Notes: a model not told the origin generated them from the letters alone. A stretch of 64,000 nucleotides of DNA from Vicinamibacterales bacterium (GCA_937766455.1 CALLXD010000039.1:1-64000), one strand, 5' to 3'. Numbered from the stretch's first letter, positions 31,112 to 57,038 are shown. Numbers and translations are program-made.

Positions 31112-31329
31112 CGATCCACGTCTTGCCCCGTCGAGACCCCACGACTTCGCCCCACGGAACCACCGCCCGCTTGACACCCTTTTTCGGCATCTGCCAAGAT
31201 TGGCCGTTTGATCCGTTCATGTAGCGCTGCACTCGTGGCCGTGGCGGGCCGACGGCGTGATTGCGTCGTTCGGCGCACGCGCACGTTGATGAGGCAGACG
31301 AGACAGCGGGTTGGCCCGAGGGGGACACG

Positions 31330-33504
31330 ATGAGGAAGCGCTTCGCAGGGGCATTGGCGGCGGCGGTGCTTGTCGGCACGTTGGTCATCTCGCTGACGAC
31401 GCCCGGGCGCGCCGCCGACGGGACCATTACCGGCACCGTGACCAGCCCGGGTGGTCCGGAGGCTGGGGTCTGGGTCATCGCCGAAACGACGGACTTGCCG
31501 ACCAAGTTCATCAAGACCGTCGTCACCACCGACGGCGGGCGCTATCTCATCCCCGACCTGCCCGAGGCGTCCTATAAGGTGTGGGTGCGCGGGTATGGGC
31601 TGCTCGACTCGGCGGGCGTGACCGCTCAGCCAGGCGACACCGTGGCGCTCGATGTCACGGTGGCCTCCACCCCAGCCGAGGCCGCCCAGATCTATCCGGC
31701 CAACTACTGGTACTCGCTGATCGAGCCGCCCATGGCCGGCGAGTTTCCGGGCACGGGCGATGACGGGAACGGCATTGCCGCCACGCTGCAACACCAGGAG
31801 CAGTGGGTGGATGTCCAGAAGCAGGGCTGCATGCTCTGCCATCAGCTGGGCAACCGCATCATTCGCGAGATCGACAACCTCGAACAATTCGACTCGACCC
31901 TGGCCGCCTGGGATCACCGCGTGCAGATGGGGCAGCGCGGCTCGCAGATGACGAACGTCATGAGCCGGTTCGGGCGTCAGCGAGGGTTGCAGATGTTCGC
32001 CGACTGGAGCGACCGCATCGCGTCTGGCGCCGTGCCGCCGGCGCCGCCGCGGCCGCAAGGCGCCGAGCGCAACGTGGTCATCTCGATGTGGGAGTGGGGG
32101 ACGGAGATCGACTACATCCACGACGAGATTGCGACGGACAAGCGGAACCCGCGGGTGAACGCCAACGGTCCTGTGTATGGGGTCAATATCTCGAATGACG
32201 GCTTGGCGATGCTCGACCCGGTCACCCACATGGCCACGAATCTGAGCATTCCCCTTCGCGTTGATCCGGACACGGTGCCGGGGATGATTGCGCAGTCGAT
32301 GCCGGCTCCGTCGCGCCTGTTCGGCGACGAACTGATTTGGAAGGACCCGGCCAATCCCCACAACCCGATGATGGACCAGAAGGGCCGGGTCTGGATGACC
32401 TCTGCCATCCGGAACCGCGCCAACCCGGATTACTGCAAGGCCGGTTCGGACAATTCGTACGCCCAGTATTTCCCGCTGGAGAGTGGATTCCGGTCGGTCG
32501 TCTACTTCGAGCCGGAGACGCAGAAGTTTGTGATGATCGACACGTGCTACGGCACCCATCATCTGCAGTTCGCCGAAGACGACAACGACACGTTGTATTT
32601 CAGCGGCGGCGGACAGGTGATCGGCTGGCTCGATACAAAGCTCTACGACGCTACCGGAGACGAGCGTGCCGCCCAGGGCTGGTGTCCCACCGTGCTTGAT
32701 ACAAACGGGGACGGCGTCATTACCAAACCCTGGAATGAGCCGGCTCGCGGCAGAGAAACCGCGACGAATGACCCCAGCCTTGATACGCGGGTTGTCGTGG
32801 GCAGTTACGGCGTCATCGGCGATCCCACCGACGACAAGGCGGTGTGGATCAGCTCGAACCGGTTTCCTGGACGGCTGGCGCGGCTGCACGTCGGTGACAA
32901 TCCACCCGAGACCTGCCTGACAGAGATGTTCGAGGTGCCGTCGGTGCTGGACGACACGGTCCCGAAGGAGAAGACCGGATTCGGCTCGCGAGGACTGGAC
33001 ATCGACCGGGACGGCGTCATCTGGACGGCCCTGTCGGGGAGCAGTCACTTTGCCAGCTTCGACCGGACGGCGTGTGATGTGCACAACGGGCCGACGACGC
33101 TCGAAGGGCGGCATTGCGTGGACGGCTGGACGTTGTATCCGACGCCCGGCCCCCTCGTGAAGGGCACGGACGTCCGCGCCGACTACCACTATTACAACTG
33201 GGTCGACCAGTGGAACACCCTCGGGCTTGGCGAGGACGTGCCGATTGCCACCGGGTCGAACTCGGATTCGCTGCTGGCCCTCGATCCCGACACCGGGGAC
33301 TGGACGGTGCTGCGCGTGCCGTATCCCCGCGGGTTCTTTACACGCGGGCTCGACGGGCGGATCGACGATCCCCAGGGCGGCTGGAAGGGACGAGGCGTGT
33401 GGGCCACCTACGGCGAAGCGGCCACCTGGCACATCGAAGGTGGCCAGGGCGTCAAGCCAGGCATCGTGAAGTTCCAGGTGAGGCCAGATCCGCTGGCGAA
33501 TTGA
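31330..33504 (+). CDS. Secreted CarboxypepD_reg / c-type haem / propeller-like protein (paralogue 1)
   Basis: Signal peptide; GTITGTVTSPGGPEAGVWVIAET...; CMLCH haem site; DTNGDGVITKPWNEP; C-terminal blade-like repeats with LLALDPDTGDWTVLRVPYPRGFFTRGLDGRIDD. Confidence 0.75.
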   Translation: MRKRFAGALAAAVLVGTLVISLTTPGRAADGTITGTVTSPGGPEAGVWVIAETTDLPTKFIKTVVTTDGGRYLIPDLPEASYKVWVRGYGLLDSAGVTAQPGDTVALDVTVASTPAEAAQIYPANYWYSLIEPPMAGEFPGTGDDGNGIAATLQHQEQWVDVQKQGCMLCHQLGNRIIREIDNLEQFDSTLAAWDHRVQMGQRGSQMTNVMSRFGRQRGLQMFADWSDRIASGAVPPAPPRPQGAERNVVISMWEWGTEIDYIHDEIATDKRNPRVNANGPVYGVNISNDGLAMLDPVTHMATNLSIPLRVDPDTVPGMIAQSMPAPSRLFGDELIWKDPANPHNPMMDQKGRVWMTSAIRNRANPDYCKAGSDNSYAQYFPLESGFRSVVYFEPETQKFVMIDTCYGTHHLQFAEDDNDTLYFSGGGQVIGWLDTKLYDATGDERAAQGWCPTVLDTNGDGVITKPWNEPARGRETATNDPSLDTRVVVGSYGVIGDPTDDKAVWISSNRFPGRLARLHVGDNPPETCLTEMFEVPSVLDDTVPKEKTGFGSRGLDIDRDGVIWTALSGSSHFASFDRTACDVHNGPTTLEGRHCVDGWTLYPTPGPLVKGTDVRADYHYYNWVDQWNTLGLGEDVPIATGSNSDSLLALDPDTGDWTVLRVPYPRGFFTRGLDGRIDDPQGGWKGRGVWATYGEAATWHIEGGQGVKPGIVKFQVRPDPLAN

Positions 33505-33571
33505 TGGGATGCCGGTTTGAAGCTCGTCGTCCCGACCTGCGGTTTGTACGAATGGGGATGGATTGAAATTA

Positions 33572-35920
33572 ATGACAAATAAGACGAACCTGTGCGCGGC
33601 TCTCGCGTTGCTGCTTTGTACTGCACCCCTCACCTGGGCGGGGCAGAACTCGACGGGGTCCATCGGGGGTACGGTGACCGATGAGAGCGGCGGCGTCATG
33701 CCGGGTGTCACCGTGAGTGCGGCGGGTGACGACGGCACGCGCTTCGGAGTGAGTGACACGGACGGTCGGTACGAGATTTCCTCGCTCGCGACTGGACGGT
33801 ATGAGGTTGAGGCACTGCTGCAAGGATTCAGTGGCGACCGCGTCTCGGTCTCCGTCACAGGCGGCGCCGCGGCCTCGGCAAACCTGACGCTGGCGATCGC
33901 CGCCATGGCGGAGACTGTCACCGTGACCCGCACCGACCAGCCGCTGTCCGTCGTGCCGAGTTCCATTACTGTCGTGAACCGGGACCAGATTGAGTTTGCC
34001 CAGCGCCGGACATCACTCGACGAGTCGCTCCGTGGTATCCCGGGGTTGTTCGTCCAGAATCGTCGAAACTACGGCTTGTCGGGTGGCATCGGGATCAGCA
34101 TCCGGGCGCCACAGCCGCGGTTCGGTCTGCGCGGGGTCGCCATCATCCAGGACGGGATTCCTATCACCACCGCTGACGGCACGACGGAACCGGGCAACGT
34201 CGATCTGGGTTCCGTCGGACGCATCGAGGTCATCCGCGGACCAAGTTCCGTGTTGTACGGCAACTCGGCCGGCGGCGTGATTAACCTCACCACCACCTTC
34301 AACCGGTCGCGCAAGTTGACGATTAGTCCCGATTTTCAGTTCGGGAGCTATGGCTTCAACCGGCAACAGATTCGTGCCGACGGAGGCGACGCCAAGACGC
34401 AGTTCATGTTCAGCGCGAGCCGTTTCGAGACCGACGGATTCCGGGAGAACGGCCACGCCGAGATCATGCAGACGAACCTCATGGTCCGCCGCGAATTGGG
34501 GCCGAACACTGAACTGCGCGGTGTCTTCAATTTCAACGACACGCCATACGCGGAGAGTCCGAGCTTTCTCAACGAGGCGGACGCGCGGGGTGAGCCGCTC
34601 AGGGACAGCAACGGGGCGTGTCTCTCAGGTGCCTGTATGGCGCGGGGCATCGCCCTCTCACGCAATTGGGGCGAGGCCGCGAGACAGGGCCAGGGTGGCC
34701 TGACCCTCGAGCACCGATTCAGCGAGCAGGATCGCCTCCGAGTGACCGGGTGGGGCATGTGGCGGGATCTTGACGCAGTCGGCGCGTTTCGGAACGTTGA
34801 GCTCGGTCGGAACGGGTTCGGATTTCGGTCGGAGTATCTCGGCGGGACACAGGCCGGCACTGTCGGTCTCGACTGGGCGGCGGGGTTTGATGTGTCCTCG
34901 CAGAATGACGACCGGATGGAATTCGGTCAGGTGAAACCGGCGGTAAGCGGGGGACGCGCGACGAGCGGGGCCCTGCGTGTCGACCAGACGGAAGATGTGT
35001 TATCCGCGGGGCCGTTTGCGCAGATCGGGATCTCGCCGAACGACCGCGTCCGGTTCAGCGCCGGTGTCCGGTGGGACCACTACAACTTCACGGCCGGCGA
35101 CCGACGGCTCGATGATGGTGACCAGTCTGGCGACCGGACCATGAGTCAGGTGAGCCCGTCGGTCGGGGTGACGGTGGCGGCGGCAGACGGCGTCAACCTG
35201 TTCGGTAACGTGTCAACCGCCTACGAGACCCCGACCACTGTGGAGCTGTCCAATACCCCGACCGGTGCCGGTGGGTTCAATCAGGAGCTCGGCGCACAGG
35301 ACTTGACCAATGTCGAGTTCGGCGCGCGTGGCTTGATCAGTCCGGCTCGGTTGCGTTACGAGGCGGTCGTGTTCGTGTCGACCGTGGACGGCGCCCTCGT
35401 GAACTTTCAGAACCCGGATGAACAGACCTTCTTCCGCAATGCCGGAAAATCGTCCCGCGACGGCTTGGAGTTGGCGCTCGACTGGGTGCCGACCTCCAGC
35501 TTTTCCACGCGGGTAGCCTACACATACCAGAACTTCAAGTTCGAAGAGTTCACGACCGGCGGTGATGATTTTGCCGGGAACCTCGAGCCTGGTGCTCCGC
35601 CGCACCGCGTGTTCTTCGGTGCAAACTACACCGCCCCTTTCGGACTGCGATCGTCAGCGAATGTGCGATGGGTTGATAGTTTTGCCGCGAACAACGCCAA
35701 TACGGTTTACAACTGGTCCTACACGGTCGTCGACCTCCGATTCGGGTATGACGGGAACTGGGGCGGGGTTGACGTGCGACCGTTCCTCGGGATCGACAAC
35801 CTGTTCGATGAGCGGTACAACTCGTCGATTATCACAAACGCGTTCGGCGGCCGATATTTCGAGCCGTCGCCGGACCGCGAGTTCTACGTCGGTCTGACGA
35901 TTGGGACCGGCGTACGGTAA
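33572..35920 (+). CDS. TonB-dependent receptor with N-terminal CarboxypepD_reg-like domain
   Basis: TGSIGGTVTDESGGVMPGVTV; plug SLDESLRGIPGLFVQNRRN, GRIEVIRGPSSVLYGNSAGGVINL; barrel repeats; terminal IDNLFDERYNSSI...FYVGLTIG. Confidence 0.93.
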   Translation: MTNKTNLCAALALLLCTAPLTWAGQNSTGSIGGTVTDESGGVMPGVTVSAAGDDGTRFGVSDTDGRYEISSLATGRYEVEALLQGFSGDRVSVSVTGGAAASANLTLAIAAMAETVTVTRTDQPLSVVPSSITVVNRDQIEFAQRRTSLDESLRGIPGLFVQNRRNYGLSGGIGISIRAPQPRFGLRGVAIIQDGIPITTADGTTEPGNVDLGSVGRIEVIRGPSSVLYGNSAGGVINLTTTFNRSRKLTISPDFQFGSYGFNRQQIRADGGDAKTQFMFSASRFETDGFRENGHAEIMQTNLMVRRELGPNTELRGVFNFNDTPYAESPSFLNEADARGEPLRDSNGACLSGACMARGIALSRNWGEAARQGQGGLTLEHRFSEQDRLRVTGWGMWRDLDAVGAFRNVELGRNGFGFRSEYLGGTQAGTVGLDWAAGFDVSSQNDDRMEFGQVKPAVSGGRATSGALRVDQTEDVLSAGPFAQIGISPNDRVRFSAGVRWDHYNFTAGDRRLDDGDQSGDRTMSQVSPSVGVTVAAADGVNLFGNVSTAYETPTTVELSNTPTGAGGFNQELGAQDLTNVEFGARGLISPARLRYEAVVFVSTVDGALVNFQNPDEQTFFRNAGKSSRDGLELALDWVPTSSFSTRVAYTYQNFKFEEFTTGGDDFAGNLEPGAPPHRVFFGANYTAPFGLRSSANVRWVDSFAANNANTVYNWSYTVVDLRFGYDGNWGGVDVRPFLGIDNLFDERYNSSIITNAFGGRYFEPSPDREFYVGLTIGTGVR

Positions 35921-36071: not shown

Positions 36072-37187
36072 ATGACCGTTCAACCCGCTCAAGAGATGGG
36101 CTTCGACCGCGCCAACGAAGTAGTTCAGCGGTTCCAGAAGGAGTCCACAAAGTGGCTCTACGGTCTCGATGAGGCTGCTCGCACGCTGTCCTGGGCGTTC
36201 TTTACGCTCTTGCCGTATACCGACAAGCTGAGTCAGAGCAAACTGCTGCGCCAGCCGCACGTGATGTTCAGAGGGCCGACCGGGACCGGCAAGACCGACT
36301 TGGTCAGCGCCTGTGCAATGGCGATCGACGCCAAGTTCGAGCGCATCCAGGGGATGCCCACCTACATGCCCGAGGACATCCTCGGCTACGAGACGATCGT
36401 CGAGGGCACCGACGGCAGCCGGAAGCTGGTGTTCAAGCCGGGCAAGTTGATGGCGCACATCGTGCTGATCGACGAGGACAACCGGTTGTCTGGCAAGACC
36501 AAGGCGGCGGTGCTCGAAGGCATGGAGGAGAGTTCGGCCACGCTGAGCTCGGACTACGGCAACCTTGCCGAGGGCAAGATATTGCCATTGTTTCCGCTGT
36601 CGTGCGATTTCGCCGACATCACTGGCCCGCGCTTCTTCATGGTCATCTGCACCGAGAACATCTTCGGTGAAGAGGAAGGCACCTTCGCGAACCCGGTGGC
36701 GCAGCTCGATCGCACCACGTTGTCCATCAACATGATGGACCCGGAGAACGAGGAGGACGAGTACAACATCAGCGCGCGGAACGTGGTCGGCCGGAAGGTC
36801 GAGAAGCTGACGAACCTGTATGAGGTGCTCGAAATCGCGCAATACATCTACGACAACGTCGAGATGTCTGAGTACGGCCAGCAATACAAGGTGCGGCTCA
36901 TTCGCAACACCCGTCCGCACCGTGTGCAGGGGCGAGCGGCCCGGACAGTCAAAGAGTACATTCGGGTTGGGATCTCGCCGCGTGTGCATTTCCACATCGA
37001 GGCAGTGGCGCGCACCTTCGCGTTCTTCAACGGCGACTTGAAAGTGACGCCCGACCACATCAAGGCGGTGGCTGGCCCCGTGTTGGCTCATCGGCTGGTG
37101 CTGCGCGAGGGGATGGAGTTCTCGGTCGACAAGGAAGAGCTGTTGCAGCAAATCCTGCGGGACATGGAGGTTCCGCCGTGGAAGTAG
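36072..37187 (+). CDS. MoxR-family AAA+ ATPase, MxaR-like
   Basis: Walker A GPTGTGKTD; Walker B IVLIDED; NRLSGKTKAAVLEGMEE. Confidence 0.85.
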   Translation: MTVQPAQEMGFDRANEVVQRFQKESTKWLYGLDEAARTLSWAFFTLLPYTDKLSQSKLLRQPHVMFRGPTGTGKTDLVSACAMAIDAKFERIQGMPTYMPEDILGYETIVEGTDGSRKLVFKPGKLMAHIVLIDEDNRLSGKTKAAVLEGMEESSATLSSDYGNLAEGKILPLFPLSCDFADITGPRFFMVICTENIFGEEEGTFANPVAQLDRTTLSINMMDPENEEDEYNISARNVVGRKVEKLTNLYEVLEIAQYIYDNVEMSEYGQQYKVRLIRNTRPHRVQGRAARTVKEYIRVGISPRVHFHIEAVARTFAFFNGDLKVTPDHIKAVAGPVLAHRLVLREGMEFSVDKEELLQQILRDMEVPPWK

Positions 37188-38095
37188 AGGAACTCTACGC
37201 TCGATTCCGCGATATCAAGCACGGGATCCGAGCGCGAAAGTCCTCTACGAGCATGCACTTCGGCGAGCACAAGAGCGGGTACAAAGGAGCTGGCTACGAT
37301 ATCGTTGGGGTCGAGCAATGGAGACCGGGACAGCCGCTGAAGGACGTCGCATGGAACATCAGCATGCGTACGTATCCGGAGAAGCTCTACCGCATCGAGC
37401 GTATGGAGCCCAAGGAGCTCCGCACGCTAATCGTGTGCGATCTGTCCTATTCCACGCTGTTTCAGGTGTCGCAGGCCTCAACCAAGGCGCTGTTGATGCT
37501 GGATCTCCTCGGCAACATCGGGCTGACCCGGTCCAACGTCAGGGATCCGGTGGGGTTGCTGGGGTACTCCGATCGCATCGAACTCTTCATGCGGCCGAAG
37601 CTGGGATCGTCGCAGATCTTCCACATGGCCCATCAGGTCTTCGACAAGTTGAATCTCGAGCGCCAGTTTCCGAAAAAGCGGTCTGCCGACCTTCGGGTGG
37701 CACTCGATTTTATGCTGGCGCGGCTCAAGAACCGGCACTCGGTCGTGTTGTTGACCGACCTCGTGGACATCGTGAACGATCCGGACTCCATCGACTTCAA
37801 GCGACTGAGGACACTCGGGTCGAAGCACGATATGATCGTGCTCATTCTCGATGATCCACACGAATTTCGCGTCAAGAGCCGTTTCGGCTATATCCGCATC
37901 TCGGATATGGAGACGGGCAAGCAGACCGTGATCTCAGCCCGCAAAGCCGCCGCCATTCGTCGTCGAATCGAAGAGGTACGCGCAACCGTGGTGTACAGGT
38001 TGAAGCGCAAGGCTGGTATCGATGCCTGCGTGCTGACACCGGACAATCACATTGAGGAGCTGCCCAAGTTCCTGATTTCGCGCACCGCACGGTAG
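37178..38095 (+). CDS. DUF58 domain protein, MxaS-like
   Basis: GVEQWRPGQPLKDVAWNISMRTYPEKLYRIERMEPKELRTLIVCDLS; overlaps the MoxR gene. Confidence 0.85.
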   Translation: MEVEELYARFRDIKHGIRARKSSTSMHFGEHKSGYKGAGYDIVGVEQWRPGQPLKDVAWNISMRTYPEKLYRIERMEPKELRTLIVCDLSYSTLFQVSQASTKALLMLDLLGNIGLTRSNVRDPVGLLGYSDRIELFMRPKLGSSQIFHMAHQVFDKLNLERQFPKKRSADLRVALDFMLARLKNRHSVVLLTDLVDIVNDPDSIDFKRLRTLGSKHDMIVLILDDPHEFRVKSRFGYIRISDMETGKQTVISARKAAAIRRRIEEVRATVVYRLKRKAGIDACVLTPDNHIEELPKFLISRTAR

Positions 38096-38106
38096 GGGAA
38101 CAACAG

Positions 38107-39246
38107 GTGGACATGATACGCACCCTAAGCATGCCAGGTACGACCCGAACGCCACGTACATCCGTGATCGCACTCAGCGTCCTGTTTCTGGTTTCGGCGG
38201 CCGCGCGGGCCCAGCCGCCAGCGGTCGAGGAGGCCCCGACGGGGCCGGTGCGGGTGGAGACGTTGGAGCTCGAACCCACGGTCGTCAAGACCGGCGATCT
38301 CATAACGCAGCGCTATCGGCTCCGATTTCCTGACCTCGTTGCGGGTGGACAGGAGATCATCATTCTCGAAGACCGGGTGGCGCCGGAGGCACTGCCGGTC
38401 CACCCCTTCGAAGGGGTCTCGTTGAGCGTCGAGAAGGACCTGGTCGACGGCGAGTACATCTGGGACTTCGTGTATGGGTTTCGACTGGTCGACCCGAACA
38501 AGATGACCTATCTGTTGCCGAACTTCAGCTTCTACTACCTGGTGCGTGACCTGGGCGAGGAGATCGAAGACGCCGAGGTGCAGCAGGTCGACGGCGGACA
38601 GGGGCTCGTCCGCTACGTGACGTCGATCACCGATGAGCCGCTGTTGGATATTCGCGACACCATCGAGCTTGGCGCGTTCGCCGGGCGCGCCACGTTCTTT
38701 CAGACTCTGGGCTGGGCGGTCGCTCCGCTTCCGCTGCTGCTCTGGTTCGTGATGCTCTTGCGATTCGCGCGCAAACCAAAGGCCGTTTCGCTCGAAAAAC
38801 AGCAAGAGGCCGACGAACTGGCGAGACTGGAAGCACAGGTTCCGGTACAGCCCTCGATCTGGGAGGCGCGGCGCGCGATCAATCGAGAACTGAAGACGCT
38901 GCAAGATTTGCCGTCCGGCGCGGACCCCGAGCAGCTCGCCGGCTACGAGCGCGGTATGGTCCTGGCGTTGCGCGACTATTTTCTTGCCGATATCCCAGAG
39001 CTGGTTCCCGGCGATACATCGCTGGAGATGCAGCGGCACATCAGCGGGTTGAAGGATAGTCACCGCCGGGAGGTGCTCGGCGTGCTTGCGGAGCGTCTCG
39101 TGGCCTATCAGCGGGGCCTCGAAACAGACGGGGCCGCGCCGATCGACAGTCCACCGCTTGAGGCAGACGTCCTGGCCGGCGCGCTCGCGAAGCTGCGACC
39201 GCATGTGCGGCTCCTGAACAATATCAAGTCGCTGGTCGGGCGGTAG
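38107..39246 (+). CDS. BatD/MxaA-like exported, membrane-anchored protein
   Basis: Signal peptide, large extracytoplasmic domain, single TM TLGWAVAPLPLLLWFVMLLRFARK; position in cluster. Confidence 0.55.
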   Translation: MDMIRTLSMPGTTRTPRTSVIALSVLFLVSAAARAQPPAVEEAPTGPVRVETLELEPTVVKTGDLITQRYRLRFPDLVAGGQEIIILEDRVAPEALPVHPFEGVSLSVEKDLVDGEYIWDFVYGFRLVDPNKMTYLLPNFSFYYLVRDLGEEIEDAEVQQVDGGQGLVRYVTSITDEPLLDIRDTIELGAFAGRATFFQTLGWAVAPLPLLLWFVMLLRFARKPKAVSLEKQQEADELARLEAQVPVQPSIWEARRAINRELKTLQDLPSGADPEQLAGYERGMVLALRDYFLADIPELVPGDTSLEMQRHISGLKDSHRREVLGVLAERLVAYQRGLETDGAAPIDSPPLEADVLAGALAKLRPHVRLLNNIKSLVGR

Positions 39247-39274
39247 CGCTCGATCGAAGAAGCGGGTCACGACG

Positions 39275-40405
39275 ATGTTGATGCCCTGGAACCAGCTGGT
39301 CGCATTCCTCGACTCGGGGATCCGCGAGCTGATCGACACGGACTTCCAGCAGATCCGCTATGGCGACGTCGGCTTGGCGGTGGCGTTGGCGATCGCGGTC
39401 GGCGTCATCCTGACGCTGACGCTGATGCGGCTGGCCGCGATGCGGAAGCGTCATTCGCGGCAGCACTCGGGGCACATCATTCGGCCAGCGCATCGTAAGC
39501 GCCTCTGGATCAGAGCGCTGCATACGGCGCCCAAGGCGTTTTTGGTCGCCGCGGTCGCGATGCTGATCTTCTCTATTGCCGATCCGTTCCTCACCGCGAC
39601 GGAGGAAGTGAGCGGCTACGTCGAGTCCCGGGTCCGGATCGATCTGGTCGACACCTCGGGCTCGATGGCATGGGAGTTTCCGGACACCAATAAGTCGAAG
39701 GCCGAGGTGGCCCGCGACGCGCATCTCGCGTTCCTCGAGATGCGCAAGGAGAAGAACGACCGGGTGTCGTTGTGGCTGTTTTCCACCTATCCGTACATGG
39801 TGGACGACTTCGTCATGGACGACGAGCTGTACTACTACCAGGTCTGGGACGCGCCGTACGTGATGACCCAGCGGCTGGACAAGGCGATGGTGGTACCGCG
39901 TGACAAGGTGCGGATTATTCCGGCCGAGGGCGATACGAACATTATTCGGCCATTGCAAGACATCGTGAAGCACTTCGACCGCGACGAGGCGACAGTCGGG
40001 CGCGAGGCGAACCAGAACCGCGCGGTCCTGATCATCACCGACGCCGCCGTCGACGAGTTTCCGGATGCGGAGTTCGCCGAACTCGCCAGGCGGAACATCG
40101 TGCCCTACCTCATCTACATCAATACCAGCGATGCGCGGTCGGCGAGCTTTCTCCACCCGACGGTACCCCAGCTGGTAGCGCAAATTCAGGAATATGGTGG
40201 CGACTACTTCGACGTCACCAGTGAGGACAGCCTGTTGCGGGCGTACGAAGCGATCGACGAACGCGAGGCGGTGCGCGTCGAGTTGAAGCACCGCGCGTTG
40301 AAGGTTCCGATTTTTCCGCGGTTTCTCTTGGTGGCGATGGGGTTGCTGATGATCGGCATTCCCCTGGGATTCGTCTCCGAGTTGCTGTGGGGCACGAGTC
40401 CGTAG
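39275..40405 (+). CDS. VWA-domain membrane protein, MxaC/BatA-like
   Basis: MIDAS RIDLVDTSGSMAWEF; flanking TM segments. Confidence 0.8.
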   Translation: MLMPWNQLVAFLDSGIRELIDTDFQQIRYGDVGLAVALAIAVGVILTLTLMRLAAMRKRHSRQHSGHIIRPAHRKRLWIRALHTAPKAFLVAAVAMLIFSIADPFLTATEEVSGYVESRVRIDLVDTSGSMAWEFPDTNKSKAEVARDAHLAFLEMRKEKNDRVSLWLFSTYPYMVDDFVMDDELYYYQVWDAPYVMTQRLDKAMVVPRDKVRIIPAEGDTNIIRPLQDIVKHFDRDEATVGREANQNRAVLIITDAAVDEFPDAEFAELARRNIVPYLIYINTSDARSASFLHPTVPQLVAQIQEYGGDYFDVTSEDSLLRAYEAIDEREAVRVELKHRALKVPIFPRFLLVAMGLLMIGIPLGFVSELLWGTSP

Positions 40406-40421
40406 GACACAAGGAAAGACG

Positions 40422-41087
40422 ATGCGACTAACAGACCTGATCGATAAAGAGCACTCCTTCCGGTATCTCGTCGGTTTCGTGCTGGCGTTGTTGTTCTTTA
40501 TTGGCGTCTCGGTGCCCTCCAACAGCCTGGCCGGGTTCTACGCGAACCTCGAGGGACTGAGTGACAGCGTTGAGCGTTCTGACTTCGCCACAGCCGAAGA
40601 GCAGCTTGCCGAGGTCTCGTCGTTTTACGAGGGAAGCCGCGCCTGGGGCATGCAGGGACTGGTGGACTCCTATCTGTTCCAGGACGCGTTCCTGCAGCAG
40701 GCATCCTACAGCTATCTCACGGGTGACTATCAAACCGTGGTCGACGACCTAGCGGATGAGATCGATGACCCGCGCGCTTCGCAGCTTCTGGCGAGCGCGA
40801 AGTTCATGCTCGCACGGGCGCGGTATCGTGCGATTGACCTTGAGAATGCCAACGCGCAGATTGAGAAAGAGGCGATTATTCTCGAAGTGATGGAGACGGT
40901 GAACGCCGACTACGAGCGTGCACTGCGTGGCGATGTGACTGACCGCTTCGACTACAAGTGGAACTACGACTTGACCAGCAACCCGGAGGCGATTCGCCGC
41001 GCGCTCGAGGAGCCGCGCGAGATTGAGCCCCCGGAGCTGGAGCAAATGAAGGGCGAGGGGACCCCCGTTCGTCGCCGTCGCGGCTAG
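40422..41087 (+). CDS. MxaK-like single-TM, TPR-like protein
   Basis: N-terminal TM FLVGF-like segment and helical repeats; position between two VWA genes. Confidence 0.5.
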   Translation: MRLTDLIDKEHSFRYLVGFVLALLFFIGVSVPSNSLAGFYANLEGLSDSVERSDFATAEEQLAEVSSFYEGSRAWGMQGLVDSYLFQDAFLQQASYSYLTGDYQTVVDDLADEIDDPRASQLLASAKFMLARARYRAIDLENANAQIEKEAIILEVMETVNADYERALRGDVTDRFDYKWNYDLTSNPEAIRRALEEPREIEPPELEQMKGEGTPVRRRRG

Positions 41088-41133
41088 GACCCGCCGATTG
41101 GGGGCCTGACGGCCGCCCGCCATCACACGCGCC

Positions 41134-42222
41134 ATGGACGCCATCACCAGCCTCTTCCGGGACAGCGTCGAGTTCACGAACCCGGAGTATCTGGCGATTG
41201 TGCCGATTGCCGGATTGATTCTGGTATTCGGTCTGATCGTCTTCGCCCTCCGGTTGGTCCTGCGACCTGCCAGGACCGAAGGGTCGCGGTATCCCATTTT
41301 CGGCCACATCAAGTTCTGGTTCTTCGCGCTCGCCGCGTTGACGCTGGTGGCCGTCGCCGCCGCCAGGCCTTTCTGGGTGTACGGCGGGTCCAGTTTTAAA
41401 CGGGGAGATGTCGACGTGATCGTCGCCATCGATGCCTCCGCGTCCATGTGGGTCAAGGACCTTGGGCCCTCACGGCTCGAACTCGGCGTCCGGGAAGCGC
41501 TGGGTCTGTATACCCAGGACATCTTGACACCGGGTGACCGGACGGCGCTGTTTGTCTGGGGCACCACCGCGCTGCGTCGGGTACACCTGTCGGCCAATGC
41601 CGAGCGCTTCATCGAGGAGGTCGGGCGCATCGGGCCACCGCCCTCGCTGACCGGTGATGCGTTTCCCTGGGACAGCGACATCGCGACCGCCTTCGAAGCT
41701 ATCTATTTGTCGCTGGACAATCAGGACCGTTTCGAATCAGGTGATGACGGCTGGTTGCCGGAGGAGCGGAACGATCGCTTGGTGCTGCTCTTCACCGACG
41801 GCGATTTTCTCATCGATGCGGAACAGCGCAGTCGTCTCGATGTCGCGCTGGCTGAGTTCCGTCAGCGTGGTCTGGTGATCTACCCGGTGGGGATCGGGAG
41901 TCGCACCGGTGCGAATGTCGACTCGGTGTTGCTCGATTACGTCCGCGGTGTTGACTACGACGAGACCTTGGAGGCGGACCTCGAAGGGCAGCGCACTCGC
42001 TTGGGCGTCGACGGACTCAACATGCTGGAACAGCGCACGAGTGGGCGCTCGTTCCTCCTGGACAGTACGCAGCTATCCTCCGCCACGTTCTTGGGTAACG
42101 TCGTGGACAATCATCGCAGCATCTCCTTCCAGCTCATCCCGTCCGAAGACAAACAGGAGGTGTGGCAGTGGGTGGTCATGCTCGCCATCTTCCTGTTCGT
42201 CGTGGCCATGCTGTTTTATTGA
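41134..42222 (+). CDS. VWA-domain membrane protein, MxaL/BatB-like
   Basis: MIDAS VIVAIDASASMWVKD; TM at both ends. Confidence 0.8.
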   Translation: MDAITSLFRDSVEFTNPEYLAIVPIAGLILVFGLIVFALRLVLRPARTEGSRYPIFGHIKFWFFALAALTLVAVAAARPFWVYGGSSFKRGDVDVIVAIDASASMWVKDLGPSRLELGVREALGLYTQDILTPGDRTALFVWGTTALRRVHLSANAERFIEEVGRIGPPPSLTGDAFPWDSDIATAFEAIYLSLDNQDRFESGDDGWLPEERNDRLVLLFTDGDFLIDAEQRSRLDVALAEFRQRGLVIYPVGIGSRTGANVDSVLLDYVRGVDYDETLEADLEGQRTRLGVDGLNMLEQRTSGRSFLLDSTQLSSATFLGNVVDNHRSISFQLIPSEDKQEVWQWVVMLAIFLFVVAMLFY

Positions 42223-42394: not shown

Positions 42395-42970
42395 ATGACA
42401 CTGACACGTCCAACCGACATGATGGCGGCGGTGGCGGAGTCAATGAAGGAGCGGACCGGCCGCACTCTGGAACAATGGGTGGCCGTCGTGACGGACGCGG
42501 GGCTTGATCCCCTGGATCAGAACGGCGTGCGACGCTGGCTGAAATCCGAGCACGGCGTGGCTCTGAATTCGAAATGGGCGATCGCCGACGCGGCCGCCCG
42601 CGGCGCCGGCTGGCAGCGACCTGGCGTGGAGCAGTACGTCGACCAGCAGTATGTCGGCGCGAAGCAGACGCTACGGCCACTGTTCGACCGCGTTCGCGAG
42701 ATCGTGGAGGCGTTCGGCGCCGACGTGATGATTGAGGGGCGCTCGACATACACGCCCTTCGTGCGACGGCGGCAGTTTGCCGCGGTGGCGGCCGCGACGC
42801 GCACCCGGGTCGATATCGGGGTACGTTTCGTCGACCCGCCCGACTCGCCGGGGCTGGTGCCTTCGAGGGCGCCGGGCCAGGCGACGCATCGGGTGTCGGT
42901 GACCGCCTTGGGCGAGATCACGGCCGACGTCGAGCGACTGCTACGAGTCGCCTACGAGCAGAACGGTTGA
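42395..42970 (+). CDS. DUF4287/DUF5655 domain protein
   Basis: MMAAVAESMKERTGRTLEQWVAVV ... GVRRWLKSEHGVALNSKWAIADA; C-terminal DUF5655-like FDRVREIVEAFGADVMIEGRSTYTPFVRRRQFAAV. Confidence 0.75.
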   Translation: MTLTRPTDMMAAVAESMKERTGRTLEQWVAVVTDAGLDPLDQNGVRRWLKSEHGVALNSKWAIADAAARGAGWQRPGVEQYVDQQYVGAKQTLRPLFDRVREIVEAFGADVMIEGRSTYTPFVRRRQFAAVAAATRTRVDIGVRFVDPPDSPGLVPSRAPGQATHRVSVTALGEITADVERLLRVAYEQNG

Positions 42971-42994
42971 GGCTGCTGACGGTTCACGAGGATC

Positions 42995-43705
42995 ATGAAT
43001 CTCAAACGCATCGTCGAGGAAACTGATACTCCCGCCGGGCGGGTGTTCGACTCGGTCGTGGTGCTGCTCATCTTCACCTCCATTGCGACCTTTTCCTTCG
43101 AGACCCTGCCGAACCTACCGCCGACGGTTACCACGGGGCTCGAGCTGGCCGAGGTCGTACTGGTCGTGTTGTTTACGATCGAGTACGGGTTGCGCGTGGC
43201 GCTGGCCGACGACAGGTGGCGGTTCGTCCGGAGCTTCTCCGGCCTTGTCGATCTCGTGGCGATTCTTCCGTTCTACGTCTCATTGGGCATCGATCTGCGC
43301 GCTGTACGGGCCCTGCGGCTACTGCGGCTGCTGCGTATTCTGAAGCTGGCTCGGTACAGCAGCGCCATCGGACGGTTTCAACGGGCGGTCGCTCTGGCGC
43401 GGGAGGAGTTGGTGGTGTTTCTCGGGATCGCCGTGATGCTGATCTACCTGTCGGCAGTCGGCATCTACTACTTCGAGCATGAGGCGCAGCCGGACCTGTT
43501 TGCCTCGGTGTTTCATAGCCTGTGGTGGGCCGTGGTCACGCTCACCACAGTGGGGTATGGCGATGCGTTTCCAGTGACCTTGGGCGGGCGGACGTTCACC
43601 TTCGCGGTGCTGATGGCGGGACTCGGGATCGTCGCGGTCCCTACCGGGCTGCTCGCATCGGCACTGTCCCGTGTTCGGGAGGAGGAGCGAGATGGCGCCT
43701 CCTGA
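42995..43705 (+). CDS. Voltage-gated potassium channel family protein
   Basis: S4-like DLRAVRALRLLRLLRILKLARYSSAIGRF; selectivity filter LTTVGYGD. Confidence 0.92.
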   Translation: MNLKRIVEETDTPAGRVFDSVVVLLIFTSIATFSFETLPNLPPTVTTGLELAEVVLVVLFTIEYGLRVALADDRWRFVRSFSGLVDLVAILPFYVSLGIDLRAVRALRLLRLLRILKLARYSSAIGRFQRAVALAREELVVFLGIAVMLIYLSAVGIYYFEHEAQPDLFASVFHSLWWAVVTLTTVGYGDAFPVTLGGRTFTFAVLMAGLGIVAVPTGLLASALSRVREEERDGAS

Positions 43706-43744
43706 TTCGACCGCGCCGTCACGGCGAAGGCCCGCCGCGTGGGG

Positions 43745-43763
43745 GCCGGGGCGCCGCCCCGGC
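43745..43763. terminator. Hairpin between convergent genes, possible bidirectional terminator
   Basis: GCCGGGGC-gcc-GCCCCGGC perfect 8-bp stem; no U-tract. Confidence 0.4.
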
Positions 43764-43776
43764 TAACGAGACCCCA

Positions 43777-45375
43777 CTAGTACCGCGACGCTCTGAGCCA
43801 GACGTCGGACCTGGCCCAACTCGCCTCAAGGTCGGCGTCGACGGCGGGGTCGGTGCGACCCTGCGCTTCAACCGCGGTCTTGAGGCCAAACAGTGACCAC
43901 CCGTTGTGCGCGTGGTCTTCGAGTTCCGCCCGGTAGACCTGCTCCGCCTCCGCGTATCGCTCCTGCTCCAGCAGCGCCGCCCCTAGCCAGTGCCGGGCGG
44001 CGAACGGAAGCGGCTCCGGCTCATCGTATCCAAGGGCGTCTTCCCGCTCCACCGCTTGCTGGAATGCCGCGATCGCCGCGTCCACGTCGCCCCGTTCGCG
44101 ATGCAGCGCGCCCTCGAGGACGCCCGCCACCACGCCGAGCAGGTCCTCGGCCGTGTGGAACCGCATCTGTGCCTCCGAGGTCTCGGCGGTGTGCTTGACC
44201 CGGTTCAGATAGACCTCGGCGAAATCGGCATCGCCTTCACGCAGGTGAGCATAGCCCTGCGCGAAGTCCCAGAGGCCGCCCTCGACCTCGCCCTCCGGCC
44301 GTTCCGTTACCTCGAGCACCTCATCGAACCGACCGAATCGCAGCAGGGTCAATGCGTGATGGACACTGTTCCCAGTGAGCTTGTGGTAATCCTTGCCGGC
44401 CTGGATGGCCACCGCGCCCTGGCCGTCCATCGACGCTGCGAACAGCAGCATGTGCAGGTTGTGCTGGGGGTAGATGGCGATGCCGGTGCCGAAGGCGTCC
44501 CGCTGGTCGGAATGCCAGGCGCGGGTGTTGGCTTCCACGCCATCGGACCAGCGCCCGACCTCATTCCACGTGTGCGACGGCATGTGGTTGATGTGGCTGG
44601 CTCCGGGAACCGAACTCCCGAGATGTTCCGCGCACGCTTCGGCTTTGTCCGGCCGTGTGGTGGACTCGGTGGCGTGAATATAGAGATGGCACGCACCGGG
44701 GTGCTTGATGTCTCGCGCGAGGACGCTCTCGAGCGCCGCGTGTAGTCGCTGTACTCGCGGGTCGTTGAGATCCCGTGTGCCCCGGCGCGGCTCCAGCAAG
44801 AACAGGGCGTCCCCGTACATGGTGGCGGCATCGAGATCGTCCGGGAACTGTTCGACGAGCAGCCGCATCGCCTCGGCGTAGGCTTCGTCCTGATCCCGGC
44901 GCTTGTCGACCTCGAACTGCTCGACGTAGCGGTGCGAGAGCGCATCGATATACGCCCGCTCTCGCTCGCTGGCATGCACTTCCGACAGGCTCATCGCCTT
45001 GCGGACGGCGACGTAGGCGTGTGGGGCTTCGGGTGGGCGCATCGGCCCATTCAGGTATGACCCCCAGGCCCACGCCTCACCCCAAAAGCAGATCGCACAA
45101 TTCGGGTCCTGCTTCCAGGCCTCGCGAAACGAGCGCACCGCGTCCACTTTCGCGAACGAGTACATCAGTTGCATGCCCTGGTTGAAGAACTTCTGCGCCT
45201 CGGCGTTCTCCGACGAAATCTCGAACGTGTATGGACCCAGTACTTCGGGATAGAAGGGAATGGGGTCGCGATACTGCTCGGGCAGCTCCGGGTCGTCTTG
45301 GGCGAAAACCGGCGCTGCGCTCAACAGTGCAGCGGTCACCGCAAGCCGGGTTCCCCATCGGGTCATTGTTGTCAT
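43777..45375 (-). CDS. Exported tetratricopeptide-repeat protein
   Basis: Signal peptide; AQKFFNQGMQLMYSFAKVDAVRSFREAWKQDPNCAICFWGEAWAWG; further TPR-like repeats. Confidence 0.8.
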   Translation of the reverse strand: MTTMTRWGTRLAVTAALLSAAPVFAQDDPELPEQYRDPIPFYPEVLGPYTFEISSENAEAQKFFNQGMQLMYSFAKVDAVRSFREAWKQDPNCAICFWGEAWAWGSYLNGPMRPPEAPHAYVAVRKAMSLSEVHASERERAYIDALSHRYVEQFEVDKRRDQDEAYAEAMRLLVEQFPDDLDAATMYGDALFLLEPRRGTRDLNDPRVQRLHAALESVLARDIKHPGACHLYIHATESTTRPDKAEACAEHLGSSVPGASHINHMPSHTWNEVGRWSDGVEANTRAWHSDQRDAFGTGIAIYPQHNLHMLLFAASMDGQGAVAIQAGKDYHKLTGNSVHHALTLLRFGRFDEVLEVTERPEGEVEGGLWDFAQGYAHLREGDADFAEVYLNRVKHTAETSEAQMRFHTAEDLLGVVAGVLEGALHRERGDVDAAIAAFQQAVEREDALGYDEPEPLPFAARHWLGAALLEQERYAEAEQVYRAELEDHAHNGWSLFGLKTAVEAQGRTDPAVDADLEASWARSDVWLRASRY

Positions 45376-45645
45376 GGGCCTTCGATCTCCTGCGTGCTTG
45401 CCATGTTCAGGCTGGCAACGCGGTACGTCCGTGCCGGGTATGTCTCGATTGCTGGCGGTCGACGACGTTGCTGGACGCGGAAGTCGGCAGATCACCAGAT
45501 GTCATCCGGTACGGACGGCGTGCAGCATCCCTGATCATAAAGGACTTGTTGCTTCATCCCAAGGCGTCGGCGTGGCCGCCGTCGACATCACCGGAACCGA
45601 CGAGCATTGGTGATGATGTTTTGGCCTTCTGCGAAATTGCAAAAC

Positions 45646-51662: not shown

Positions 51663-52988
51663 TCAGGAATTGGCCGGGTCCGCCCCGGCTGGCTGCTCCA
51701 GCGATTCCTTCATCTCGGTAATGGACACCGCCGGAAAGTTCTTGATGAACAGCAGGAACAGCGTGAAGAACAAACCGAATGAACCTACCGTAATCGCCCC
51801 CTCTACCCAGGTCGGCTGGTAGACGCCGGCCCAATTGGCGGGGTCGAAGTCATGTGACAGGGAGCTCACGATGATGACGTAGCGCTCGAGCCACATCCCG
51901 ATATTGACAAAGATCGACAGCACGAAGAGCGCCGCCAGGTTCGTCCGAAACGCCTTGATGAACAGCAGCAACGGCAGAATCACGTTGCAGGTGAACATCA
52001 TCCAGCTGTAACCCCAGTACTGTCCGAACATGCGGTCGTAGAACGTCCCCTGCTCGAAGACGTTTCCGCTATACCAGGCGACGAAGAACTCGGTGAGATA
52101 GGCGTAGCCGACGATCAGCGACGTGGTGAGCATCAACTTCGCGAGGTTCTCGAAGTGATGCACCGTGATGTAGCTCTCTAGCTTGAAGGCCCGCCGCATC
52201 GGCAGCAGCAGGGTGATCACCATCGCGATGCCGGAAAAAATCGCGCCGGCCACAAAATAGGGCGCAAAAATCGTGCTGTGCCATCCTGGCAAGATCGCCA
52301 TCGCGAAGTCCCAGGAGACGACGCTGTGCACGGAAATGACGAGCGGGGTGGCCAGAGCCGCGAAGAACCCGTAGAGCGCCGCGTGGTGGTGCCACTGGCG
52401 GCTGGTGCCGCGCCAGCCGAGCGCCAGGACTTTATAGATGGGCTGGCGCCAGTCTTTGATTCGGTCCCTCGCCGCGGCGATATCCGGCATCAGTCCGAGG
52501 TAGAGGAACATCGCACTGACGGTCAAATAGGTCGAGATGGCGAACACGTCCCAGACGAGCGGGGACCTGAAATTAACCCAGAGTTGCCGCTCATTGGGAT
52601 ACGGGAGGAGCCAGTAGAAGAACCACGGCCGTCCGATGTGGATGATCGGGAATAGTCCGGCCGTCATGACCGCGAACACGGTCATCGCTTCGGCGGCGCG
52701 GGCGACAGCGGTCCGCCAGCGGGCGCGGAAGAGAAAGAGGACAGCCGAAATCAGCGTGCCGGAATGAGCAATTCCGACCCAGAACACGAAGTCCGTGATG
52801 TAGATGCCCCATAGGATCGGGTGCTCGTAGCCTGCGACGCCGAGGCCGGTACGGGCCTGGTAGAGAAACGCGTACAGACCCACCAAGGCCAATGAGATCG
52901 CGACCACCACGCCCCCGTACCACAGGGGGCCGGGGGCGCGGAGCGTGCGCAGGATGTCGTCGTTGATCTTCGCGAAACTCATGACCAC
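51663..52988 (-). CDS. actC: Alternative complex III NrfD-like subunit ActC
   Basis: GIYITDFVFWVGIAHSGTLISAVLFLFRARWRTAVARAAEAMTVFAV; 10 or so TM. Confidence 0.93.
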   Translation of the reverse strand: MVMSFAKINDDILRTLRAPGPLWYGGVVVAISLALVGLYAFLYQARTGLGVAGYEHPILWGIYITDFVFWVGIAHSGTLISAVLFLFRARWRTAVARAAEAMTVFAVMTAGLFPIIHIGRPWFFYWLLPYPNERQLWVNFRSPLVWDVFAISTYLTVSAMFLYLGLMPDIAAARDRIKDWRQPIYKVLALGWRGTSRQWHHHAALYGFFAALATPLVISVHSVVSWDFAMAILPGWHSTIFAPYFVAGAIFSGIAMVITLLLPMRRAFKLESYITVHHFENLAKLMLTTSLIVGYAYLTEFFVAWYSGNVFEQGTFYDRMFGQYWGYSWMMFTCNVILPLLLFIKAFRTNLAALFVLSIFVNIGMWLERYVIIVSSLSHDFDPANWAGVYQPTWVEGAITVGSFGLFFTLFLLFIKNFPAVSITEMKESLEQPAGADPANS

Positions 52989-53005
52989 GTGTCGGCTGGC
53001 GCTCG

Positions 53006-56000
53006 TCAGGCGTCCGGCGTGACCTTCTTCAAGTAGGTCACCGCCGGTCGTGTATTGAACTCAGCGAGTGCGTGATAGGCGCGAGCGTCGTTGCCTAACT
53101 GTGACACGCGGCTCCCCGGGTCGTTCATGTCTCCGAACACGATCGCCTGGGCCGGGCAACTCTGGGCACAGGCCGAGGTCACGTCGCCGTCCTGCACCGG
53201 CCGGTCTTCGTCACGCGCGGTCTCCTTGCCGGCTTGGATGCGCTGCACGCAGAAGGTGCACTTCTCCATGACGCCGTCGCTGCGAGCGGTCACGTCGGGG
53301 TTGAGCTGCAAATTGAGCGGCGACTCAAATTCGGGTAGGAACCAATTGAAACGGCGCACCTTGTAGGGGCAGTTGTTCGAGCAATACCGGGTGCCGACGC
53401 AACGGTTGTAGACCTGGGCGTTGAGGCCCTCTTCCGTGTGATAAGTGGCGAACACAGGACACACCGTTTCACAGGGGGCATGGTCGCAGTGCTGGCACAG
53501 CATCGGGAGGAACCGGTTGTCCGGTCCGTCACTGCCGGGGGCTGGCTCGTCAAAGCGCTCGATGCGGAGCCACGACATGGTGCGGCCGCGGCGCATACGG
53601 TCGGCGCCCATCACGGGGATGTTGTTCTCGGCGTAACACGCGGCCACGCAGGCATTGCACCCATTGCAGGCGTCGAGATCGATCGACATCCCCCAGCGGT
53701 GCACGGGGTGGTCGTGGTCTGGATGCAGGCTGAAGGGCTCTTCTTCTGGATGGACGTCGCCGGCCACGAGTGCCGCCAGGGACACGGACTGGGCCATCTC
53801 ACGGCCGTCCTGGTCGAAGCCGTGCTGCAGGCGTGGAATCGGTCGCTCCAGCTGGCGGGCGGTCAGGTCGACCCCGGTGCCGGTCCATCGCACGCCCCCA
53901 GAGGCGGCCTCAGGTTGAGCGGAGAGTAGGGCGACCGGATTGACCCCTCGGTTGTCGGCGTAGCGTCCGAAGTTGGTGTGGCCCTGCCCGATGGCGATCG
54001 CCACGACGCCGGCGGCAAGATGGGGGTTGATGATGACGCTCGCGTCAACCTGCCCGTGGTCCGACTCCACGGCGACCATCTGACCCTCTCCGGCGCCGAT
54101 GGCGGCGGCCGTCTCGGCCGTCATTTCGACCCCGGTTCCCCAGGTCGTCTTGAGCATCGGGTCCGGAATTTCCTGAAGCCACGGCCGATTCGCGCCTCGG
54201 CCATCGAAGAAGTGCAACGACGGATAGGCGATAAGCGCGTATGACCGCGACGGCACGGGCGGTGACAGTGCCCCGGTCAAGTCGGTGTCGAAGACCTCGG
54301 GAAGTAGGTTGACCTCAACCGGTTCGACCGCGAGCGTGGTTCCACCACGGCGGAGGGCGTCGGCCCAGTAGCCTTCGAAGTCTGGCTCCTCGGCCGCTGC
54401 GTCGCTCTCGGCGCCGTCGGTGTCGTCCGCCACCGGTTCGGGCAGGGGCTGCATGGCCTGCCAGGTATTGCGCAGATACCGGTAGAAACCGCCGCGACGC
54501 GGGAAGTTGGCCGCCGTGTCGCCTCCCAGGGCCCGTCCCACCGCGATCATCACATCGCCGGCGTGGCGTGTGTCGAAGACTGGCTGCATGGTGGGTTGCA
54601 GCAGTCCGTAGACCCCCCGCCTCGGGTTGCTGTCGCCCCACGATTCAAGCGGGGTGTGGGTGGGGAGCAGGAGATCGGCGTGCGCCGTGGTTTCGTCCGG
54701 CAGGCTCGACAGGCTGATGACGAACGGCACCTCAGCCAGCGCGCCAGCGAAGTCGGCCTCGCCCGGCATCGCAAAGACCGGGTTCACGTTGTAGATGATG
54801 GCGAGCTCGATATCACCGGCGCGCATCGAGTCGCCCAGCGCCTGCATATCCGCGTAGGTGGAGGCGTCCAGGGTCGAGGCAGCGCCGAAGTCCACCGTTC
54901 GTCCGACATTGCCGGCGACGTAGTTGAGCAGGGCGACCGTGGACGCCGTCGCGGTGGCGTTCGCGCCGGAGACGCCGACCCCACCCCCTACCGCCAGGCT
55001 GCGCCCGGGACCGCGAGCTGGATCCGAGAACTCGCGGGCCAGGTCTCGAATCCCGTCGGCCGACAGGCCGGTTGTTGAGGCCACGGTGTCTGGCGAAACG
55101 GACGAGACCAACGCCGCGATCGCGTCCAAGGTCTCTGGAGGTACGCCTTGTGCGCGTTGCTCGGCGATGATGGTCTGTATCATGGCCGCCGCCACCAGGC
55201 CCTCGGTTTCAGGCGACACGGCATGCCACTCGTCGGCGCTGGCACCGGTCATCGACAGCCGGGGCTCGACTTGGACAAACCGTGCCTTTTCGCCGTTTCG
55301 TACCCGTCGCTGGCCGGCGTGGTCGCGCGCGTAGCCCACCGGAGAACTGAACGTCTCCAGGAAGTCGGCGCCGAACGAGATGAGATAGTCCGCGTTCGCA
55401 AAGTCGTAGTGCGGCACCTCGGCCCGTCCGAAAAGCTGTCGATTCGACTCCCGGGTTGCCTCGTAGGCGAACGGTTCGTAGCGGACCCAGCGGGCGCCGC
55501 CCAAGGCCTCCACCCAGGTCGCTGTGAGGGCCGCCATGGTGCCGGTGAGCGGTGGCGTGATCACCGCGATCCTGTCTCCCCGGCCTGCGTCGCGGAGCGC
55601 CTGCACCCGGTCAACCAGATCCTGCTGCGCGTCGTCCCATGGCAGCGCGTCGAGCACGCTCTGTCCGGCGGCTGCGTTGGTGACCCGGCGCCGCTGGGGG
55701 CCGGGAATCCGATCCGGATTGTAGAGGCCTTGGAGCGAGGACTGTCCGCGAACGCACAGTCCACCCCGGTTGATAGGGTGCTCTGGGTTGCCCTCGATTT
55801 TCACCGCGCGACCCTCGCGTGTGCGCACCAGGGTGCCGCAACCGGCCGGGCATTCCCCGCACACGCTGGCATACCAGGTCGCGACGCCGGGGATGACGTC
55901 CTCCGGCGGGATGACGAACGGAATGATCTGCTCGGGCGTGATCGGCGAACAGGCGGAAAGCGCCACCGCCGGCCCGGCGCTGCCCAGGACCTTCAGGAAC

Positions 56001-56065
56001 GTCCGGCGTTCCACCACCTCAATGAGCGATGAGCTGCTCTGCTTCACGCGTTCCTTCCCCCTCAC
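53006..56065 (-). CDS. actB: Alternative complex III iron-sulfur/molybdopterin-like subunit ActB
   Basis: TAT-like RRTFLKVLG; CGECPAGCGTLVRTREGRAVKIEGNPEHPINRGGLCVRGQ; ferredoxin domain CNGCNACVAACYAENNIP, CQHCDHAPCETVCP, CVGTRYCSNNCPYKVRRFNW. Confidence 0.95.
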   Translation of the reverse strand: MRGKERVKQSSSSLIEVVERRTFLKVLGSAGPAVALSACSPITPEQIIPFVIPPEDVIPGVATWYASVCGECPAGCGTLVRTREGRAVKIEGNPEHPINRGGLCVRGQSSLQGLYNPDRIPGPQRRRVTNAAAGQSVLDALPWDDAQQDLVDRVQALRDAGRGDRIAVITPPLTGTMAALTATWVEALGGARWVRYEPFAYEATRESNRQLFGRAEVPHYDFANADYLISFGADFLETFSSPVGYARDHAGQRRVRNGEKARFVQVEPRLSMTGASADEWHAVSPETEGLVAAAMIQTIIAEQRAQGVPPETLDAIAALVSSVSPDTVASTTGLSADGIRDLAREFSDPARGPGRSLAVGGGVGVSGANATATASTVALLNYVAGNVGRTVDFGAASTLDASTYADMQALGDSMRAGDIELAIIYNVNPVFAMPGEADFAGALAEVPFVISLSSLPDETTAHADLLLPTHTPLESWGDSNPRRGVYGLLQPTMQPVFDTRHAGDVMIAVGRALGGDTAANFPRRGGFYRYLRNTWQAMQPLPEPVADDTDGAESDAAAEEPDFEGYWADALRRGGTTLAVEPVEVNLLPEVFDTDLTGALSPPVPSRSYALIAYPSLHFFDGRGANRPWLQEIPDPMLKTTWGTGVEMTAETAAAIGAGEGQMVAVESDHGQVDASVIINPHLAAGVVAIAIGQGHTNFGRYADNRGVNPVALLSAQPEAASGGVRWTGTGVDLTARQLERPIPRLQHGFDQDGREMAQSVSLAALVAGDVHPEEEPFSLHPDHDHPVHRWGMSIDLDACNGCNACVAACYAENNIPVMGADRMRRGRTMSWLRIERFDEPAPGSDGPDNRFLPMLCQHCDHAPCETVCPVFATYHTEEGLNAQVYNRCVGTRYCSNNCPYKVRRFNWFLPEFESPLNLQLNPDVTARSDGVMEKCTFCVQRIQAGKETARDEDRPVQDGDVTSACAQSCPAQAIVFGDMNDPGSRVSQLGNDARAYHALAEFNTRPAVTYLKKVTPDA

Positions 56066-56727: not shown

Positions 56728-57038
56728 TGGGGGGGGGCGTGAGTGAGACCGTCAGCGTAGTCGAATGTGCCTCTACAGTTGGGCCCCGCGAGGTCTGGGT
56801 CAATCTACCGCGTCGAAATACGTGCCCTGCCTGAGGCGGGGCCACTGTCCGGACAAGCACGGAATCATACCGAACCGGGCCGGTCTCGCCAAGTGTACTT
56901 TTTCTGCCGATTCCCGAAAGGGCCGTTGACCACCTCGTAACCCCTCAGGTACAGTGTCCGCTCAAGCCGCATCCGTAGCGCGTCGAAGGTCTGGTGGACG
57001 TCCGCATGGTCCGGGTGTGGCGGGGAGACAGAGAAGAG

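Follow-up and report, generated by a model that had tools for sequence, protein, structure and literature searches.

An mxaRSACKL-like gene cluster linked to PQQ import or synthesis genes in a family of Vicinamibacterales

In the plasmid-borne mxa clusters of Methylobacterium, Methylocystis and Paracoccus (L132, L133, L134, L137), the genes run mxaF-J-G-I-R-S-A-C-K-L-D. MxaACKL has been assigned to calcium insertion (PMC6028718), and MoxR is needed for activation of methanol dehydrogenase (PMC3893208). In the canonical view, mxaACKLD and mxaRSEH are held to be unnecessary for XoxF (PMC11845868). Orphan mxaRSACKL clusters that lack mxaFI and mxaD and occur alongside xoxF and pqq genes are known from the Methylophilaceae (PMC4109929). 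Two of these, in M. mobilis JLW8 and M. versatilis 301, are RSACKL sets without mxaFJGI or mxaD; pqq genes are present in these genomes, and the only XoxF there is of the lanthanide type (PMC4109929). Bat operons of Bacteroidota and Fusobacteria, which are ordered MoxR-DUF58-small exported protein-BatA-BatB-BatC-BatD, share MoxR, DUF58, the small exported protein and two VWA genes with the locus described here.

A six-gene cluster and its conservation

We analyzed a 64,000-nucleotide stretch (the window) from a Vicinamibacterales bacterium (GCA_937766455.1 CALLXD010000039.1). Six ORFs, R-S-A-C-K-L, lie at 36072-42222 with gaps of -10, 11, 28, 16 and 46 bases from R to L. The first-pass annotation had read them as co-directional genes with short gaps or overlap, and ORF calls, Pfam and a transmembrane (TM) scan confirmed this. 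Their order, which it had called mxaRSACKL, exactly matches the Methylobacterium, Methylocystis and Paracoccus clusters. The six genes and the two directly upstream are as follows:

31261..33504, + strand: exported protein with CarboxypepD_reg and CxxCH (one haem) and a propeller-like C-terminal half (Pfam, motif); 58 bases before the PqqU-like gene
33563..35920, + strand: PqqU-like TonB-dependent receptor (putative PQQ importer; PDB matches, NCBIfam); 151 bases upstream of R
36072..37187, + strand: R, divergent MoxR-family AAA+ ATPase, predicted cytosolic (Pfam AAA_3 and AAA_lid_2; alignment)
37178..38095, + strand: S, DUF58 protein without a TM segment (Pfam DUF58, E = 2.5e-24; motif and TM scan)
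38107..39246, + strand: A, protein in the MxaA/BatD position (signal, TM scan, AlphaFold model; no family match)
39275..40405, + strand: C, VWA protein, three TMs (two N-terminal, one C-terminal; Pfam VWA_2)
40422..41087, + strand: K, N-terminal TM anchor and predicted periplasmic helical TPR-like domain (alignment, structure model)
41134..42222, + strand: L, second VWA protein, TM layout as in C (Pfam VWA_2)

The GPTGTGKT and LIDED motifs of R are conserved in the family alignment, and most S members have a DxSxS MIDAS-like motif. The DTSGS MIDAS of C is invariant, and its nearest profiles are MxaC and BatA. L carries a DxSAS motif and is BatB-like/MxaL-like by profile. The TM1-TM2 loop of both C and L reads as rich in Arg, Lys and His, so by the positive-inside rule their VWA domains are expected to be periplasmic. 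The topology of the other parts is likewise a prediction, from hydropathy and the same rule. A is predicted to be bitopic, with a periplasmic beta-sandwich, one TM segment (~200-218) and a cytosolic helical domain; the AlphaFold model has a pLDDT of 63 overall and ~90 in the helical domain. The models of A and K were of modest confidence and gave no specific fold match. In Pfam and NCBIfam searches, A matched no profile and K nothing convincing. Those searches, proposed in the first pass with MxaA, MxaK, MxaL and BatD profiles in mind, could not decide the identity of either protein, because real, canonical MxaA and MxaK also match nothing there, neither library holding a model for them. The best cross-profile match of K was MxaK, although it was weak. 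None of the six proteins matched the PADLOC models of MoxR-VWA anti-phage or conflict systems.

The order read in the first pass also held in relatives. It was identical in every intact copy among 20 that we fetched, with a few contigs ending inside the cluster. This is beyond chance, since A in those relatives is only 52-87% identical to the A of the window. R is far more uniform within the family (85-98% identity, with one partially matching locus at only 65%). A was found in 26 of the 28 genomes of the window's Vicinamibacterales family and in 0 of the ~393 other Acidobacteriota sampled, and a K profile search of 297 genomes gave the same distribution. Within Acidobacteriota, then, the cluster was found only in this one family. 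A scan for R with one genome per species returned 26 loci, all in records with acidobacterial titles (Acidobacteria, Vicinamibacteria, Vicinamibacterales or Vicinamibacteraceae, and one Bryobacterales); because two short peptide patterns defined this search, it could miss more distant relatives. Plasmid searches with the MoxR and DUF58 proteins found no close relative outside Acidobacteriota, the best matches being ~35% and 28% identical.

Downstream of L, 42395-45495 holds genes for a DUF5655/DUF4287 protein, a small ion channel and a convergent TPR protein, and the latter two are conserved beside the cluster in several relatives. An HpaB-type hydroxylase gene lies divergent from R in genera with pqq genes upstream (12480-14099 in L099, 12113-13603 in L093). 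A conserved ORF of 506-509 amino acids before R in two genera was rejected as an antisense reading of this hydroxylase.

PQQ genes beside the cluster and PQQ dehydrogenases in the genome

The best PDB matches of the receptor upstream of R are YncD/PqqU (E = 7.7e-72 and 1e-70), and the next match is at 6e-15. Against the NCBIfam PqqU model it scored 300 bits, which is under the 1200-bit cut-off. PqqU contacts PQQ through Y99, R304 and R365 (PMC12124388). In 15 family members of the PqqU-like receptor, the arginines matching R304 and R365 never vary, and Phe stands in place of Tyr99 throughout; the R304 match was placed by hand, since HMMER seems to have slipped out of register at that point. 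The acidobacterial receptor thus keeps the key arginines of its best match, E. coli PqqU (YncD), and differs from it by the Phe at Tyr99 and by an N-terminal CarboxypepD_reg domain.

A PqqU-like gene lies on the same strand no more than 2.5 kb upstream of the cluster in 16 loci, and 7 further loci have pqq genes within ~15 kb. Of the 27 loci whose flanks could be used, 23 therefore show one or the other linkage, and two of the remaining four are cut off by a contig end. The loci share common ancestry within one family and are not independent observations. Nine loci in all have pqq genes within ~15 kb, placed upstream or downstream depending on the genus. In one genome (G420), the profiles for pqqB, C, D and E all exceeded their cut-offs beside the cluster. 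A pqqC over the cut-off was present in 14 of the 28 family genomes, often close to the cluster, and was not found in the window's genus.

There is no PQQ dehydrogenase within the 64-kb window, nor mxaJ or mxaG, as had been noted from the window itself. The description of the cluster as lacking methanol dehydrogenase genes is thus correct for the window, but it does not carry over to the genome (3.4 Mb, 85% complete), which elsewhere encodes at least 53 PQQ dehydrogenases whose active site could be read. At the positions of MxaF Asp303/Ala305, 50 of the 53 have Asp-x-Asp, 3 have Asn-x-Asp and none has the Ca-type Asp-x-Ala. A complete relative (G406) gave a similar picture, with Asp-x-Asp in 68 of the 77 enzymes read and no Ca-type residue in any. 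Asp-x-Asp is the accepted lanthanide signature in the alcohol dehydrogenase class (PMC11996626). In the GDH/SDH-like class, lanthanide use is less certain, because membrane glucose dehydrogenase, for which such use is not proven, also has Asp-x-Asp (PMC11996626). As many as 70 enzymes of this kind had been noted before, in a group of Pseudomonadales (UBA9145) and in three Acidobacteria of marine origin (PMC11996626). One class of PQQ dehydrogenase in the window's own genome resembles the GDH/SDH type; its match to TIGR03075 is split into two stretches, 14-337 and 480-527.

Genomes of the family had 101-223 first-look quinoprotein candidates apiece, compared with 2-122 for the rest of the order; as only ~10 from each genome were scored, these counts are a rough proxy. 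G116 and G237, which belong to a different family, have ~100 candidates each, and no A or K homologue was detected in either. The cluster is therefore not essential for possession of many quinoproteins, or for PQQ dehydrogenases in general. In some family members, a MoxJ-like gene scoring below the cut-off lies beside a high-scoring dehydrogenase, and the two are probably an xoxF-xoxJ pair.

Comparison with mxa clusters and Bat operons

The acidobacterial cluster agrees with mxaRSACKL of methylotrophs in the order and class of all six products, in the TM layout of A, C and K (bitopic A, TM-anchored K, two VWA proteins) and in its association with PQQ enzymes. It differs in its surroundings and its genome. 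Canonical mxa clusters have mxaFJGI in front and mxaD behind, whereas the window contains no mxaFJGI and the gene after L encodes a DUF5655 protein in place of MxaD (SRPBCC; real MxaD matches Polyketide_cyc2). Its neighbors are instead a PqqU-like importer or pqq genes, and none of the 53 dehydrogenases read in the genome is of the Ca type.

In profile comparisons, the best Mxa match of each acidobacterial family was its positional counterpart, although weakly for A and K. Probabilities were 98.9% for R, 96.9 for C, 79.8 for L, 79.3 for S and 28.7 for K (E = 6e-4), and the match of A to MxaA was not significant. L preferred MxaL over MxaC only narrowly. The profiles of R, S and L scored higher against Bat proteins of Bacteroidota and Fusobacteria than against Mxa, and C scored about equally; A and K had no match at all to Bat profiles. 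In trees of R and S, the family sits on very long branches (4.7 changes per site for R), with neither a Mxa nor a Bat origin supported. The S tree joins Bat with support of 83-87, which is not significant, and AU tests on the R and S trees reject neither origin (p 0.10-0.14). Since profiles and trees do not separate a Mxa from a Bat origin, and since the sequences are too divergent from canonical mxa to prove orthology, descent of the six genes from mxa, as in the first-pass reading of a repurposed mxaRSACKL, is unproven. The other part of that reading, a maturation-type machine, remains the best one.

These profile scores and the S tree would also fit a divergent Bat-type operon, that is, a general MoxR-VWA machine for envelope stress or outer-membrane assembly that sits beside PQQ genes by inheritance and does not act on quinoproteins. 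R aligns better to the Bat MoxR profile than to MxaR, S better to the Bat DUF58 profile than to MxaS, and L better to BatB than to MxaL. We nevertheless consider such an operon unlikely. PQQ linkage, which Bat operons lack, weakens the stress reading, as do the position of K and the separate, ordinary MoxR loci of the same genome, whose scores against Bat profiles are far higher. In the four Bat operons checked, the TPR gene follows both VWA genes and a large BatD is always present, whereas K sits between C and L and the acidobacterial cluster has no large BatD. The earlier argument from gene order survives only in this form: a BatD-like gene ahead of the VWA genes does not distinguish the cluster, because a small exported protein precedes them in Bat operons of Bacteroidota and Fusobacteria too.

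A candidate maturation machine for PQQ dehydrogenases

We think it fairly probable that R-S-A-C-K-L encodes an envelope-spanning, MxaRSACKL-like machine for the maturation of periplasmic PQQ dehydrogenases that acts on enzymes of the lanthanide type. In such a machine, the ATPase R and S, a MIDAS-bearing adaptor, would work in the cytosol. A would relay their cycle over the inner membrane through its cytosolic helical domain, single TM segment and periplasmic beta-sandwich. C and L, membrane-anchored with periplasmic VWA domains, together with TPR-like K, would hold the exported apo-dehydrogenase ready for PQQ and metal. Most clients would be enzymes with the lanthanide-type Asp-x-Asp site, and PQQ would enter the periplasm through the adjoining PqqU-like importer or be made by nearby pqq genes. 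The first-pass annotation had inferred some other periplasmic client; the number of PQQ dehydrogenases in the genome and the linkage to PQQ import and synthesis genes speak against this. The metallochaperone-like role it proposed is one that we, too, would only infer, and the cofactor loaded may be metal, PQQ or both. The Methylophilaceae orphans are a precedent for action on lanthanide-type enzymes; the canonical view of XoxF and the two quinoprotein-rich genomes without A or K count against our reading. Tentatively, and with more doubt, we suggest that a single ATP-driven RSACKL complex loads dozens of lanthanide-type quinoproteins with lanthanide and/or PQQ, so that RSACKL machines as a type would not be calcium-specific.

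The client could instead be an adjoining product: the propeller protein that carries a haem (31261-33504), or else the PqqU-like receptor. Both are encoded immediately upstream in the same direction, no terminator-like site separates the genes, and both are strongly conserved, the propeller protein being 80-93% identical beside the cluster in relatives. However, RSACKL persists in two genera (g213 and g218) that lack both genes in its vicinity, where pqq genes take their place. E. coli PqqU functions without such a machine, and we know of no RSACKL beside it. We therefore regard maturation of the adjoining products as improbable.

Acquisition of a true mxaRSACKL from a methylotroph, still loading Ca2+ into methanol dehydrogenase, would account for the identical gene order, but it is very improbable: it is largely excluded by the absence of any Ca-type client in the two genomes read, R and S are extremely divergent from MxaR and MxaS, the cluster has no mxaD, no MoxJ exceeded the cut-off in the family, and MxaI was not found in the window's own genome by a search that matched in no control genome either.

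A maturation machine for PQQ dehydrogenases would bear on how the mxa genes are described. A family with no Ca-type enzyme among 130 quinoproteins checked retains, next to genes for PQQ import or synthesis, a machine of RSACKL layout whose ATPase is unusually conserved. If this machine does act on those enzymes, the calcium-insertion label for MxaACKL is too narrow. The acidobacterial cluster is a second instance, and by far the more divergent one, of RSACKL in genomes without quinoproteins of the Ca type. It is likened to the Methylophilaceae orphans by gene content and not by sequence; those belong to another phylum and have ~2 xoxF copies as against dozens of quinoproteins (PMC4109929). The acidobacterial cluster has, in addition, a PqqU-like importer alongside and dozens of candidate clients. 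The cluster also offers candidate genes for co-expression with the many marine quinoproteins of lanthanide type whose substrates are not known.

The haem-propeller protein, with the haem motif CMLCH, had no relative in the PDB. It may be a redox partner, because a paralogue elsewhere starts ~70 bases behind a PQQ-dehydrogenase frame. The window holds a second copy of this type at 56994-59237, and the genome has 5 copies. Genes on the minus strand at 51663-56065 encode NrfD-like and molybdopterin/Fe4S4 + 4Fe-4S proteins similar to ActC/ActB in alternative complex III.
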